Assembly: GCA_016872725.1 (NCBI GenBank)
Contig: VGZC01000009.1
Coordinates: 1 to 64,000, forward strand
Reading direction: 5' to 3'
DNA: 64,000 bases
DNA from: Planctomycetota bacterium
GTDB lineage: Bacteria > Planctomycetota > Planctomycetia > Pirellulales > Pirellulaceae
Shown piece by piece: positions 3,714 through 57,423 of this stretch (its first letter is position 1; each line of letters begins with the position of its first letter). A program made the translations under genes and the position numbers. The notes below the pieces were generated by a model. That model saw only the letters and a program-made list of their open reading frames with translations, did no database searches and was not told where the DNA came from.

Positions 3714-3930
3714 CTGGGGTCTCCTGTCTTCAAGTGGAAGAGATCGAGAACCCCACCAGCCAATCACGGGTTCACGGCTGGGACAATTCTTCTCCCAGCA
3801 ACCATGATGTGGCCGCAGCGACTACGTGCGTAAATCGACTTGGCACGTCGCTTCACCTAAGAGGTGATCGAGAGAGCGATCAGCGAGGTGTGGAAAGAGG
3901 CACCTGAGACTCAGCAACTGAAGATTTGAG

Positions 3931-4017
3931 CGGAGAGGCAGGGATTCGAACCCTGGGTCGGGTTACCCCGACTCTGGTTTTCAAGACCAGTGCAATAGAC
4001 CGCTCTGCCACCTCTCC
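3931..4017 (-). tRNA. tRNA-Ser (UGA)
   Basis: An 87-nt class II tRNA on the minus strand. The acceptor stem GGAGAGG pairs perfectly with CCTCTCC, with discriminator G. The anticodon loop is CTTGAAA, giving UGA. The long variable arm (GTCGGGGTAACCCGAC) is typical of serine tRNA, and the T arm contains GGTTCGAATCC. CCA is not encoded. The 3' end faces the less GC-rich block at 1-3830, the position expected for an element integrated at a tRNA 3' end. Confidence 0.97.
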
Positions 4018-49971: not shown

Positions 49972-51819
<1,848 letters not shown>

Positions 51820-51823
51820 GGGA

Positions 51824-53089
51824 CTACCCGTCTCCTCGATAGGCGGCGTCCAGGATGGCCATCGTGTGCATTACGGGAATCGGCCTTCCCAGACGGCGGA
51901 GATGCGACTCGATTTGCATCATGCAACCGATGTTTCCCGTGACGACCGTATCGGCGGAGACGGACGCAATCGCCTCCGCCTTCGCCCTACCCAGAATGTC
52001 CGCTGTTTCCGGTTGTTCCATGTTATAGGTTCCCGCGGACCCACAACAGAACTCGCCGTTGGGGATTTCAAGAACGGTGAGTCCGCCGATCGACTGCAAC
52101 AGTCGTCGAGGCGCTTCGCGCACTTTCTGCGCGTGCGCGAGGTGGCACGCGTCGTGGTAGGCGACTCGGCGAGCGCGTTTGAGTGGAGGCGGAGACTTGG
52201 AAAGGCCGAGTTGATCGAGGAATGCGGCGACGTCGCGGGTCCGATCCGCGAATCGCCTCGCCTGCGATTCAAGAGGCGTGCCGACGAACCACAGTCCGTA
52301 TTCGCGCATACCCGATCCACAGCCCGCCGCATTGGTCAGGATGGCATCCACATCGTCGGGGAAGGCGGCGAGGTTGGCTCGGGCGAATGAGCGGGCCCGC
52401 GCGAGGTCGCCCGTATGGGCCGACATCGCGCCGCAGCAAACCTGGGCGCGCGGAACGACCGTTTCGACGCCGTTCGCCGCGAGCACGCGCACCGTGGCCC
52501 AATTGATGTCGGGAGCGAGTACCTGCTGGGCACAACCCGCCAGTAGGGCGACTCGGGCGCGGCGAGGACCCTGTGCCGGGATCGTCGCGGGAAGGGGTTG
52601 GGACGGCTCGATCCGCGAGGGAAGGAGCTCGGTCATCGCCCGCATTCGAGCGGGAAGGAGCGGCGCGAACCGGCGGGCCCATTGACCGAGCCAAGCGGCG
52701 CGGCGAAAGCGGCCGGGGTAGGGAATCGTGGCGAGCACGAAACGACGCGTCCAGCGTTCGAACCAGGGACGGCGACGACGCGACTCCGCGCGGCCTCGAT
52801 AGAGCGTCAGGAGATCGCCGTACGGAACGCCCGAAGGGCACGCCGTCACACAGCCAAGGCAGCCGAGGCATCGATCGATGTACGGCGCGGCTTCGTCGAG
52901 TTCCACTCGGCCCTCGAGCACTTCCTTCATCAGGAAGATCCGGCCTCGCGGCGAGTCCATTTCACTACCGAGGACCTGATAGGTCGGGCATGCCGGGAGG
53001 CAAAACCCGCAATGCACGCATGTGCGCACGGCGTTGCTCATCGCCGGCCCATAGGTTCCCAATTCGTCAATCGACATCTCGTGTTGCAT
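51824..53089 (-). CDS. glcF: glycolate oxidase iron-sulfur subunit
   Basis: A 421-residue protein with two [4Fe-4S] clusters, [12 protein letters not shown] (24-35) and [12 protein letters not shown] (about 74-85). Two CCG domains follow ([11 protein letters not shown], then [11 protein letters not shown] and CGSGMREYG). It takes electrons from GlcD/GlcE. It ends 4 bases before the ggt start. Confidence 0.92.
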
Positions 53090-53188
53090 GACACGCGCTC
53101 TTTACTGCGTTACCGAAGCAAACATCTCGGCGGGGAACGCGAACGGGGGGGATTCCATGCCTGAATTCGAACTCGCCCAAAACGCCGT

Positions 53189-54289
53189 TCATGGATGATC
53201 GGTGGGGCCGGTTCGCGCGGGAGCGAGCCGGAACACGCCGTTCGGGTCAAACACGCGGGCGAGGCGTTGTGCGAACGGCGTGGGATTCCAGACGCCGTGC
53301 TGGACCGTCTTGCCGTCGCCGAACACGACCAGGGCGGAGCGTCCGAATGATCGGAGCACGCGATCGACGGCGTCCCAGGGGCGCCCGCCTGGCCAAGCGA
53401 GCCAGAGGACGTGGCCGCCGGCCGCGTAGCGCCGCGGCCCCGCGCCGACCGACTCCCATTCCGACTCCAGTGCGCCGATCTGCGATGTCGTGATCGGGAC
53501 TTTTGCGAGATGGTGCCCCGGCGGCACCCATGCGAACTCGCGTGATTCACTCCAGAGGCCGTCATCCGAAACCACGACATCGACTGTGCCGCGCAGCAGG
53601 CGGCGCACGCGTTCGACCCGATGGGACAGCGCCGACGCCATTCCTCCGATTCGAATGTGCAGCGTCGATCGGTCGACAAGATCCAAGCAGGCGGGTTCTT
53701 CGGCCGAGTGCGCGATCCGCTGCAGATTTTCGATCGCTTCGTCCATGGACGCGGACCTCGCGATCAAAGTCGCATACGACTCGGGGCGCGGAAAGACCTT
53801 GAACGTGGCCTCGATCAACGCGCCGAAGCAGCCGAGACTGCCGACGGTCAGTCGAGGAATATCGAATCCCGCCGCATTCTTGACGACACGGCCACCGCCC
53901 CGCACGATGTCGCCGTCGCCATTGACGAGCCGGACGCCGAGCAGGAAGTCCCGGATTCCGCCGTAGCGGAATCGGCCGGAGCCCGACAGGCCGGATGCGA
54001 TCGTGCCGCCGAGGGTCGAACCGGCGTCAACGAGCGGCGGATCGAACGGGAGGAACTGACCGTGTTCGGCAAGCACGGCGGCGATGTCGCGGACGGGCGT
54101 GCCGGCCAGCGCGGTGATCGTGTATTCGCTCGGTTCGTATTCGACGATACCGCGAAGGCCCGCCACGCGGACGGTCGCCGAACGACTCAAGGCGGTTTTC
54201 GTGCCGCCGCCCGCGACCCGCACTTCGGGAATCCCGCGGACGAGGCCGCGAAGTTCGTCAGCCGTTCCCACATCGATCGGATCGGACAT
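53189..54289 (-). CDS. glcE: glycolate oxidase FAD-binding subunit
   Basis: A 366-residue PCMH-type protein. ATG 54289 has AGAGGG upstream. FAD-binding motifs are VRVAGGGTKTALS and AGSTLGGTIASGLSGSGRF with RDFLLGVRLVNGDG. The C-terminal FAD-oxidase domain is short, as is usual for GlcE. It works with GlcD and GlcF to oxidise glycolate to glyoxylate. Confidence 0.92.
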   Translation of the reverse strand: MSDPIDVGTADELRGLVRGIPEVRVAGGGTKTALSRSATVRVAGLRGIVEYEPSEYTITALAGTPVRDIAAVLAEHGQFLPFDPPLVDAGSTLGGTIASGLSGSGRFRYGGIRDFLLGVRLVNGDGDIVRGGGRVVKNAAGFDIPRLTVGSLGCFGALIEATFKVFPRPESYATLIARSASMDEAIENLQRIAHSAEEPACLDLVDRSTLHIRIGGMASALSHRVERVRRLLRGTVDVVVSDDGLWSESREFAWVPPGHHLAKVPITTSQIGALESEWESVGAGPRRYAAGGHVLWLAWPGGRPWDAVDRVLRSFGRSALVVFGDGKTVQHGVWNPTPFAQRLARVFDPNGVFRLAPARTGPTDHP

Positions 54290-54358
54290 GAGCGTGGTTC
54301 CCTCTCGGTTCCGCGCGGTGGACGAACGGCCTTGGATGTCGCGGCGCATTCGAAACCG

Positions 54359-55804
54359 TCATTCGCGGGAGATGATTCCTTGGCGTTCGAGCGGGTGAGC
54401 GCCGCGGGCGGTCAATGCGGGCGCGGTGGCGGACGGCAGCATCTTACCCGGATTGGCGAGTTCGAGCGGATCGACGGCCCTGCGAAGCGCATGCATGAAC
54501 TCGACGTCGAAATCGCCGAACATGTCCCGTAGGTAGGCTCGCTTTTCGAGTCCCACGCCGTGTTCTCCGGTGATCGAGCCGCCGAGTCGTACGCACATGC
54601 GGAGAATATGTCCGGCAAGCTCCTCGGCCCGTTCCCACGCGCCGGGTTCGCGACCGTCGTACATGATCAAGGGATGGAGGTTTCCGTCGCCGGCATGAAA
54701 GACGTTGGCGACCCGAATGCCGAAACGCCTGCTGAGCGATTCGATTTCGGCGAGCGCCTCTCCCAGTTTCGTTCGGGGCACGACTCCGTCTTGGACGATG
54801 AAGTCGGGGCTCAGTCGGCCGACCGCGCTGAACGCCGACTTGCGGCCGGTCCAGATCTTCAATCGTTCGGTCGCGTCCTGGGCGACGAGCGTCTCATGGG
54901 CGCCCGATGCGCGGATGACGTCGAGCAACTTGGGGCGTTCCGCCTCGACCTCTTCCGCCGTCCCTTCGAGTTCGACGATGAGCATCGCCTTGGCGTCGCG
55001 CGGGTAGATCGCCCCGATGGCGGCGAGCGCCGCGTCCATCGCGATGCGGTCCATGATTTCAAGAGCGCCCGGAAGTAAGCCCGACGCCACGACCATGGCA
55101 ACGGCGTCGCCGGCCTTTTCCAGCGAATCGTATGCGGCCTGCAGCGTGAAATAGACCTCCGGTCGCGGAATCAACCGAAGGGTGATTTCCAGCGCGATGC
55201 CGAAGAGCCCTTCGCTCCCGATGAACATGCCCGTCAGATCCGGGCCGACCATCTCAAGGCTGTCGCCGCCCAAGACGCATATCTCGCCGTCGGGCAGTAC
55301 GATCTTGAGGCCAAGGACGTGGTTGGACGTCATCCCGTACTTCAGGCAATGCGCGCCGCCCGAATTGAACGCGACGTTTCCGCCCAGCGTGCATACCGGA
55401 CCGCTCGATGGGTCCGGGGCGAAATACAGGCCGTCCGGAGCGGCGATCGTCGAGACTCGCGTATTGATGACGCCCGGTTCGACGACGGCGATCCGGTTCG
55501 CGGCGTCATATCGTACGACGCGGTTGAGTCGATTCAGGGCGATCACGATTCCCTGGGCGACCGGGACGGCCCCGCCGGAAAGGCTTGTGCCGCTTCCCCG
55601 TGCCACGAACGGAACCGCGTGGCGATGGCACGCCCGCACCGCGCGAACGACTTCCGCTTGGGTCGTCGGCAGGACGACCGCAAGGGGTTGAGCCCGGAAG
55701 GCCGTGAGGCCGTCGGACTCGTACGGAACGATCTGCGCCTTTTTCAACAACAGCCGATCGGGTGGAAAGATCTCCCGCAGCTCGGCAAGCAACGCGTCTT
55801 TCAT
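54359..55804 (-). CDS. glcD: glycolate oxidase subunit GlcD
   Basis: A 481-residue flavoprotein. ATG 55804 starts [15 protein letters not shown]; the frame extends upstream but without homology. [18 protein letters not shown] and [18 protein letters not shown] bind FAD, and [10 protein letters not shown] with [10 protein letters not shown] carries the active-site His. First gene of the glcD-glcE-glcF-ggt unit, divergent from the selenoprotein gene with 277 bases between. Confidence 0.92.
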
Positions 55805-56081
55805 CAATTCGACTCGATGGTTTGCGGCGTTCGTCGCGAGGCATTCGCCGATCCCACTTCGGCCGCGTGACCATTCTAATCGGGCGCGGTCCCGGTCCGC
55901 CATCGACCCGAAACGGCCCGGAACCAACGCCGACCCCCGTTCTCGTCCGAATTCGGTCGGCGAAGATTGTGCGACGGGTCGCGAGCCCGTACGATGATCG
56001 GCGTGCGGAACGGGCGGGTCCGCGTTCGGACCGACCGCCGCACGCGGCGTTCTTGTTCCTCGTATGCACAGGAGGCCTCGC

Positions 56082-57197
56082 TTGATTCGAAAACGACGTG
56101 ATCTGATGTTCCTCGCCCTTTTGGCGGCCGCGGTCGCCGGAGTTCGGGAACCGCGCGCCGTGTCGGCGCAGGAAGGTGGCTTCGACGCCATCATGAAAGA
56201 GTATTCCAAGGAAAATCAGGATCTGATGGCGAAGTACCGCGCCGAGAAAGATCCGCAAGCGCAAGCGAAGATCCGCCAGGAAATCCTCGGGCTCTCGCCG
56301 AAGTACGCGACCCGGTTCCTGGAATTCGCCCGCGCGAATCCCAAGGACCCGCAGGCCGCGACGGCGCTCGGCCGAGTCCTTTCCGCGGCGCGGGGTGGAC
56401 CCCAGTTCGACGAGGCGATCGAATTGCTGGTCGCGAACCACATCGAGAGTCCCGAGATCGCGACCGTTTGCCAGATCCTCGCCAACAACCGCGATCCCAA
56501 GGCCGAAGCGGCCCTTGTGACCATCTCCGAAAAGAGCACGAATCCCGCCGTCAAGGGACAGGCCCTCATGTCGATCGCCGGCCGGTTGAACGACGCCGCC
56601 GGACGCGAGGGCAGCATCGAGATGGCCCAGAAGGCCATCGCGATGCTCGAACGCGTCGTCAACGAATTCGCCGATGTGGCGGGCGCCCGAGGGAAACTCG
56701 GCGATCTCGCCAAAGCCGATCTCGAAAACGTCAAGAAGTTCGGTGTCGGTCAAACGGCTCCGGAAATCGAAGGCGAGGACATCGACGGCGTCGCGTTCAA
56801 GCTCAGCGATTACCGCGGCAAGGTCGTCATGCTCGATTTCTGGGGCCATTGGTGACCGCCCTGCAGGGCCATGTACCCACACGAGCGGTCGCTCGTGCAA
56901 CGCCTTGCCGGCAAGCCATTCGTCCTGATCGGTGTCAACAGCGACAAGGATCGCGAGAAGATCAAGAAAGATATCGCGTCCGAGAACATCACCTGGCGTT
57001 CGTTCTGGAACGGCGAGAAGGGGACGCAAGGTCCCATCTCGGCCGAATGGGGCGTTCGCGGTTGGCCCACCATGTATGTCCTCGACGCCCAAGGCCGCAT
57101 CCGATACAAGTCGGTCGGCTCGCCAGGCAATGAAACGCTCGACAAATGGATCGAGGGGCTCGTCGAGGAAGCGGAAAAAGGAGCGGCGGGCAATTGA
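56082..57197 (+). CDS. TlpA/thioredoxin-like selenoprotein (TGA at 56853 read as Sec)
   Basis: One gene of 371 residues with an in-frame TGA at codon 258. TTG 56082 has AGGAGG six bases upstream; the signal peptide ([16 protein letters not shown] region) ends at SAQ. Residues about 40-225 are helical repeats, then a thioredoxin fold begins at [16 protein letters not shown]. The active site reads [19 protein letters not shown], so Sec replaces the first Cys of WCxxC while Cys 261 remains. The same frame continues with cis-Pro GWPTMYVLD to the true stop at 57197. Without Sec the product would lack the second half of its redox fold. No sel gene lies in the window. Confidence 0.82.
56880..56897 (+). 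promoter_or_regulatory. bacterial SECIS-like hairpin after the in-frame TGA
   Basis: A 7-bp stem (CACGAGC with GCTCGTG) closes a four-base loop GGTC. The loop starts 32 nt after the TGA, and its first two bases are G. These values satisfy the published bacterial SECIS rules (loop 3-14 nt, G in the first two loop bases, 16-37 nt from UGA). It lies in coding sequence, as is normal for bacteria. Confidence 0.7.
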
Positions 57198-57236
57198 GGC
57201 CGCCCGGTCCGTTTCATCGCATGGAGCAAATCGAGC

Positions 57237-57264
57237 GGGGCGGCGGACGATCGTCCGCCGCCCC
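57237..57264 (+). terminator. hairpin terminator after the selenoprotein gene
   Basis: A perfect 28-bp inverted repeat with 14-bp arms (GGGGCGGCGGACGA) followed by GTTTGTTCG. It begins 40 bases after the TGA-containing gene's final stop, supporting a single transcript that covers the whole selenoprotein frame. Confidence 0.72.
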
Positions 57265-57423
57265 GTTTGTTCGTTCGCTCATCGGTGAGTCCGCACATCG
57301 ATTCGTCCGTTTCATGGGTCCCGTGACACGGCCTTCATCTTCGATCGCATCCCCATCCGATTCGTGATTCGCATTCGGCGCCTTCCCGTTCCGAACGATA
57401 ACCAACCGACCGGAGTTCCTTCC

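Follow-up and report, generated by a model that had tools for sequence, protein, structure and literature searches.

A predicted selenocysteine codon and a near-invariant SECIS-type hairpin in a thioredoxin-fold protein gene of a planctomycete and its relatives

Does a TGA codon that interrupts an otherwise open reading frame, exactly where a thioredoxin-like protein should have a catalytic cysteine, end the protein or encode selenocysteine? The frame in question lies on the forward strand of the window (the whole stretch of DNA that was analyzed, 64,000 nucleotides), runs from a TTG at 56082 to a TGA at 57195 to 57197, and contains a single internal stop, the TGA at codon 258, in the context W-TGA-P-P-C (W-U-P-P-C). 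The first-pass annotation of this DNA had described a frame open save for one TGA on the first Cys of a WCxxC site, and we confirmed this, with a read-through frame of 371 residues. The AGGAGG at 56070 to 56075 supports the TTG start; an alternative in-frame ATG at 56064 is located 5' of AGGAGG and is the less likely start. The layout of the gene is as follows.

56070 to 56075, forward strand: Shine-Dalgarno-like AGGAGG, 6 nt 5' of the TTG start (from the sequence)
56082 to 57197, forward strand: predicted selenoprotein gene that begins with TTG and has 371 codons before its TGA stop (homologues in frame on both sides of the internal TGA)
56853 to 56855, forward strand: TGA, predicted to be decoded as selenocysteine 258, which opens the UxxC site (UPPC)
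56862 to 56864, forward strand: TGC, Cys 261, second of the UxxC pair; TGA here in the UxxU clade described below
57195 to 57197, forward strand: TGA stop of the gene, with no GGTC-loop hairpin behind it (sequence and TGA-hairpin count)

Around the gene, a perfect 30-nt GC-rich palindrome (window 57236 to 57265), terminator-like by eye, lies 38 nt 3' of the stop codon, and the adjoining opposite strand (window 49972 to 56209, reverse) carries frames that by eye resemble glycolate oxidase subunits and gamma-glutamyltransferase.

We are highly confident that UGA codon 258 is decoded as selenocysteine and that the product is an oxidoreductase with a thioredoxin fold, probably exported. This prediction comes from the sequence, which combines an in-frame UGA for the catalytic residue with a suitably placed SECIS-type hairpin and with the presence of SelA, SelB, SelD, and tRNA-Sec in the genome. 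The hairpin is located as follows.

56880 to 56897, forward strand: predicted bacterial SECIS hairpin with a stem of 7 bp and a GGTC loop (56887 to 56890); the same bases code for HERSLV

The two arms of the stem are CACGAGC (56880 to 56886) and GCTCGTG (56891 to 56897), with 24 nt between the TGA and the stem and 31 nt between the TGA and the loop. Folded by itself, the hairpin has a free energy of -10.5 kcal/mol (z -3.97). Because a longer stretch of 58 nt folds no better than shuffled sequences (z -1.42), the signal is the hairpin and not the whole region. The published bSECIS model calls for a loop of 3 to 9 nt, an upper stem of 4 to 16 bp, a G in the first two loop positions, a distance of 16 to 37 nt from the UGA, and -7.5 kcal/mol or lower (PMC13188914). 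With its GGUC loop, 7-bp stem, distance of 31 nt, and -10.5 kcal/mol, the hairpin fits this model as it is given there. The earlier claims of a 7-bp, GGTC-loop hairpin 24 nt behind the TGA and of a fit to bacterial SECIS limits were exact in the first case and borne out in the second. As a chance control, we took every TGA on either strand of the window, 1356 in all, and counted perfect stems with loops of 3 to 8 nt at SECIS distance. A perfect stem of at least 7 bp lies behind 28 of them, 7 of these with a 4-nt loop, and a GGTC-loop stem of at least 5 bp lies behind only one, the internal TGA of this gene. Two extensions of the hairpin were rejected: RNAalifold over 32 sequences from the family gives six core pairs only, with no longer lower stem, and the long-range pairing in the window's own fold is absent from that consensus.

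The source genome (G000; 5.24 Mb, 95.8% complete) contains the machinery that such decoding would require. We detected selA (556.9 bits, cut-off 267.9) adjoining selB (354.9 bits including neighbors in frame, cut-off 242.25), selD (349.7 bits, with one in-frame TGA), and a tRNA-SeC(tca) called by ARAGORN that scores 67.2 bits to RF01852 (cut-off 47). A genome lacking sel genes had been named beforehand as one outcome that would speak against selenocysteine, and all four components turned up. The RF01852 cut-off is passed at three places in the genome, the tRNA-SeC, a tRNA-Leu (ARAGORN), and the window's tRNA-Ser, and only one of them is called tRNA-SeC, so RF01852 alone is no proof of tRNA-Sec. 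The tRNA-Ser(tga), at window positions 3930 to 4017 on the reverse strand, is a false tRNA-Sec match at 47.6 bits against 47.

The selD gene (G000:C19:20463-21389, L018) has its TGA in the context S-C-A-G-U-A-G-K, which contains a UxxK motif, and 32 nt behind this UGA comes a hairpin of 7 bp with the loop GGUCG. The SelD encoded here is itself a probable selenoprotein, and the genome holds a second, unrelated gene with the same kind of signal. Within the family, a paralogue (G000:C55:28489-29028, L055) shares both the TGA codon and the exact core of the hairpin, and its active site reads UGPC. A decayed copy around position 8989 of contig C10 (L073, L215) has kept the exact core and AHWPHERSLV, resembling the UxxU clade, while the part behind the core is shortened and out of frame. 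When we searched the genome for the hairpin core (16 nt), allowing at most two mismatches, we obtained 28 matches, compared to 19 for the reversed pattern, and only the three exact matches therefore stand out. Among the 14 translated of 24 loci from the core search, no further clear selenoprotein was found.

We then turned to relatives of the protein, searching 98 genomes including its own, and found 67 matches in 41 genomes. TGA occupies the selenocysteine codon in 33 of the 67, or 32 distinct sequences once a duplicate (L059/L060) is counted once; these include the gene under study and paralogue L055. For comparison, we examined 18 matches with other codons at this position, 17 with Cys and one with Tyr, among them L070 and L071, which have TGA elsewhere; 16 further matches without the TGA lie outside this comparison. 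An alignment of homologues at this site had been proposed as a check, and it shows Cys or TGA nearly throughout. The one Tyr (TAC) in place of the catalytic Cys is in L070 (G028:C1:4642000-4644500), which has a TGA further on where the others have Trp and is probably decayed. Several copies can occur in one genome, with five matches carrying TGA at the site in each of G033 and G048.

The presence of the hairpin goes with that of the TGA in this sample. All 32 TGA sequences retain the GGTC loop together with the six core pairs (30 exactly, and two with a single substitution after which a G-U pair still forms), and none of the 18 other forms examined does. The codons for HERSL are correspondingly uniform among the 32 TGA forms (CAC in 31, GAG in 32, CGG in 32, TCG in 32, and CTC in 31), and the codons on either side vary freely. 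Every one of the 32 selenocysteine forms has Ser (TCG) within this stretch; among the 18 other forms, 10 have Glu and one has Ser, and the RNA hairpin seems to have fixed the Ser residue. Covariation was of no use as evidence for the hairpin: none of the six stem pairs shows changes on both sides across the 32 sequences, since the stem hardly varies, and the support for the hairpin is accordingly its tie to the TGA and the codon constraint. At the level of genomes, all 19 with a selenocysteine form (own genome included) have selA over the cut-off, compared to 59 of the 98 overall (P = 1.6e-5, uncorrected for kinship; the relatives do not count as independent cases).

The hairpin is also conspicuous as DNA. 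Across 392 genomes of the phylum, we found 104 copies of the exact 17-mer core in 65 genomes, compared to five matches for the reversed pattern. For 101 of the 104 copies, from 64 genomes, a TGA stands ahead of the core at the fixed spacing of 24 nt, and a TG occurs six bases past that TGA. The three unanchored copies are a site in G231 outside such a gene, the decayed copy in the source genome, and a core in G391 cut by a contig end. Genomes carry up to four copies of the exact motif (G473, G358). In a second collection, consisting of metagenome assemblies almost throughout its named records, the anchored exact pattern gave at least 122 matches at at least 118 loci, all in frame in this redoxin. 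Among the matches listed, 115 are of the UxxC type and 7 of the UxxU type; the 118 loci listed are labeled Planctomycetota (92), Verrucomicrobiota (12), no phylum (8), or other (6), and the six other-labeled loci may be misnamed bins. This collection shares some genomes with the sets of 98 and 392, so the sets are not fully independent. Because its pattern demands the exact hairpin, the second-collection scan is uninformative on invariance, which can be read from the protein-based search of 98 genomes.

The protein itself falls into three parts, listed below.

56082 to 56171, forward strand: putative signal-like N-terminal region, residues 1 to 30 (RKRR, hydrophobic core, VSAQ), low-confidence in the model; cleavage site and export route predicted
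56181 to 56741, forward strand: ten-helix N-terminal domain, residues 34 to 220 (structure model)
56745 to 57194, forward strand: thioredoxin-fold domain of the ResA/TlpA type, residues 222 to 371 (Pfam, structure comparison, and model)

With the TGA read as Cys, the matches to PF00578 (AhpC-TSA, 66.6 bits, cut-off 26) and PF08534 (Redoxin, 62.5 bits, cut-off 26.6) both span the TGA. Residue P329 of a GWPT motif occupies the cis-Pro position, with conservation of at least 90% across an alignment of 20 rows. The first reading had noted a thioredoxin fold continuing downstream in the same frame with a conserved cis-Pro, and the Pfam matches and P329 agree with it. A full-length structure model built from the 20-row alignment has a mean pLDDT of 91.5. 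By sequence, the closest solved structure is TlpA (1.1e-16); by fold, the best matches are ResA and a putative DsbE (Z 22.0 for both; rmsd 1.4 over 137 residues for ResA and 1.5 over 139 for the putative DsbE), in comparisons that cover residues 210 to 368. The label "TlpA-like" stands only at the level of domain and fold; the NCBIfam cut-offs for ResA (67.7 against 170 bits), DsbE (55.5 against 123.15), and TlpA (54.5 against 230) are not reached. The same is true of the selenoprotein model WAxxUGC_long (NF041054; 30.4 bits against 300), and we rejected the idea that the protein belongs to an already-named NCBIfam family, given that none of the models matching at E 0.001 exceeds its own cut-off. 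Weak matches to NF053656 occur in 9 of the 20 members when the alignment is scanned. The ten-helix domain has no Pfam match at E 0.001. A crude rule, under which short upstream frames were not judged, finds a hydrophobic 12-residue stretch above a set value upstream in this gene and in 24 of the 32 selenocysteine genes in all. The protein is probably exported, through its putative N-terminal signal.

Other explanations of the internal TGA were weighed against selenocysteine, and a dead gene, a sequencing error, and a change of code are each very unlikely. In favor of the first, which is the least improbable, the source genome does hold a decayed copy of the family, the shortened and frame-shifted one on C10; here, however, no damage interrupts the frame between the TGA and its end, and this part is conserved, with 64% identity over residues 184 to 365 to a relative in G033, and the Pro of GWPT and the second Cys are both kept. 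Still less probable is a sequencing or assembly error from TGC to TGA, which are one base apart, even with Cys usual in the relatives that lack the TGA (17 of 18 examined). Such an error would bring no hairpin, and the TGA recurs at the same codon in 31 other distinct sequences, including the paralogue in the same genome, and in at least 122 second-collection matches. We give no more credence to the site being mainly a programmed stop, with the 257-residue helical part as the biological product. That part does form a separate high-confidence domain, albeit within the full-length model, and truncation is to be expected whenever selenocysteine is short, but in the 20-row alignment conservation is highest in the thioredoxin domain, which surrounds and follows the TGA, and the N-terminal part diverges. 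Finally, we found nothing in favor of the TGA being read as another amino acid, through a change of code or general read-through, which is hard to credit when the gene itself terminates in TGA and the internal TGA is tied both to the hairpin (101 of 104 cores) and to selA (19 of 19 genomes).

Three loci from our protein search (L047, L048, and L067) and at least seven more (L105, L110, L129, L147, L169, L170, and L196) have TGA at both catalytic positions (UxxU), and 3 of the 101 anchored matches in the phylum genomes are UxxU by sequence. These members lack the WGxW context. We built a tree by a quick method from 81 rows and 144 columns, leaving out the active-site and hairpin residues; 51 rows came from the search of 98 genomes and 30 from the at least 122 anchored-motif matches, with L105 left out. 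Nine of the ten UxxU sequences listed sit in this tree as one clade (SH-aLRT 100). Across the tree, at least 11 changes between selenocysteine and other forms are counted; because the starred branches force only one, repeated switching between the forms is at most suggested. All ten UxxU sequences listed have the same hairpin at the same place, with no second copy within the 62 to 90 nt examined in each, which puts the loop at 31 nt from the first UGA and at 22 nt from the second; the bSECIS range of 16 to 37 nt includes either distance. From this arrangement we infer that a single hairpin would serve both UGAs.

Redoxin-like selenoproteins with UxxC or UxxU are already known, and the UxxU motif is not new. 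One tabulation (PMC13188914) lists Prx-like thiol:disulfide oxidoreductase selenoproteins with PF00578 and UxxC or UxxU; by this description they resemble the present family in Pfam family, in UxxC, and in the UxxU form, which here belongs to a related clade. The same tabulation lists a Redoxin family selenoprotein with PF08534 and UxxC (HEU0032618.1), alike in Pfam family and UxxC on a comparison by domain and motif only; its description there includes no hairpin or N-terminal domain. The Prx-like 2 family, as described in PMC2398784, shares two selenocysteines in UxxU but has low similarity to pfam04592, whereas here the domains are PF00578 and PF08534. The WAxxUGC_long ResA-like selenoprotein (NF041054) likewise has selenocysteine within a ResA-like domain, with another selenocysteine motif. 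Two algal planctomycetes (PMC4807772) have in common with the source genome a phylum, full selenocysteine machinery, and redox selenoproteins; the main text of that paper contains "redoxin" as a word start 0 times and "thioredoxin" once, and its supplementary candidate list may hold the family. By word search, redoxin, planctomycet, UxxC, and TlpA are absent from the text available for PMC5029168 and PMC12013277. In the literature covered on bacterial and planctomycete selenoproteins, with supplements and most subscription papers outside its scope, we did not find the family and its constant hairpin described, and titles on a single SECIS with two UGAs were mainly about eukaryotes. Less expected than the motifs themselves are a near-invariant SECIS to which the codons are bound, the occurrence of more than one copy in a genome, and a UxxU clade in which two UGAs precede a single hairpin.

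ResA and TlpA reduce or exchange disulfides of extracytoplasmic partners with a CxxC site. The protein is like ResA, TlpA, and DsbE in fold, in the W-x-x-C-spaced CxxC, and in the Pro opposite the site; unlike them, it would have selenocysteine for the first Cys, has an added ten-helix domain, and scores below the NCBIfam cut-offs. In the mechanism we propose, SelB carrying Sec-tRNA would bind the hairpin and be brought to UGA 258, and the ribosome would insert selenocysteine there instead of terminating. The N-terminal signal would export the protein, and by fold and analogy to ResA/TlpA the Sec258/Cys261 pair may reduce or exchange disulfides or other oxidized partners outside the cytoplasm, with the helical N-terminal domain perhaps choosing those partners. 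Under selenium shortage, a truncated form of 257 residues would be expected.

A broader proposal, which in our judgment is evenly balanced between right and wrong, is that one near-invariant 17-nt SECIS, present in paralogues and in genomes labeled Planctomycetota and Verrucomicrobiota, governs an expanded family of exported seleno-redoxins. Under this proposal the RNA would dictate protein sequence (Ser in selenocysteine forms, mostly Glu in the others), and in the UxxU clade a single hairpin would direct the decoding of two UGAs that are separated by nine bases and lie 31 and 22 nt from its loop, giving selenocysteine at both catalytic positions. With that clade, nature provides a test case for the question whether two neighboring UGAs can share one bacterial SECIS. 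Because an ordinary gene caller would cut such a gene at the TGA, this widespread family is likely annotated as short or broken; of the 392 genomes of the phylum, 64 carry the anchored motif, some with as many as four copies. The constant hairpin provides a simple, specific DNA signature for such genes, and the family deserves a name and a model.
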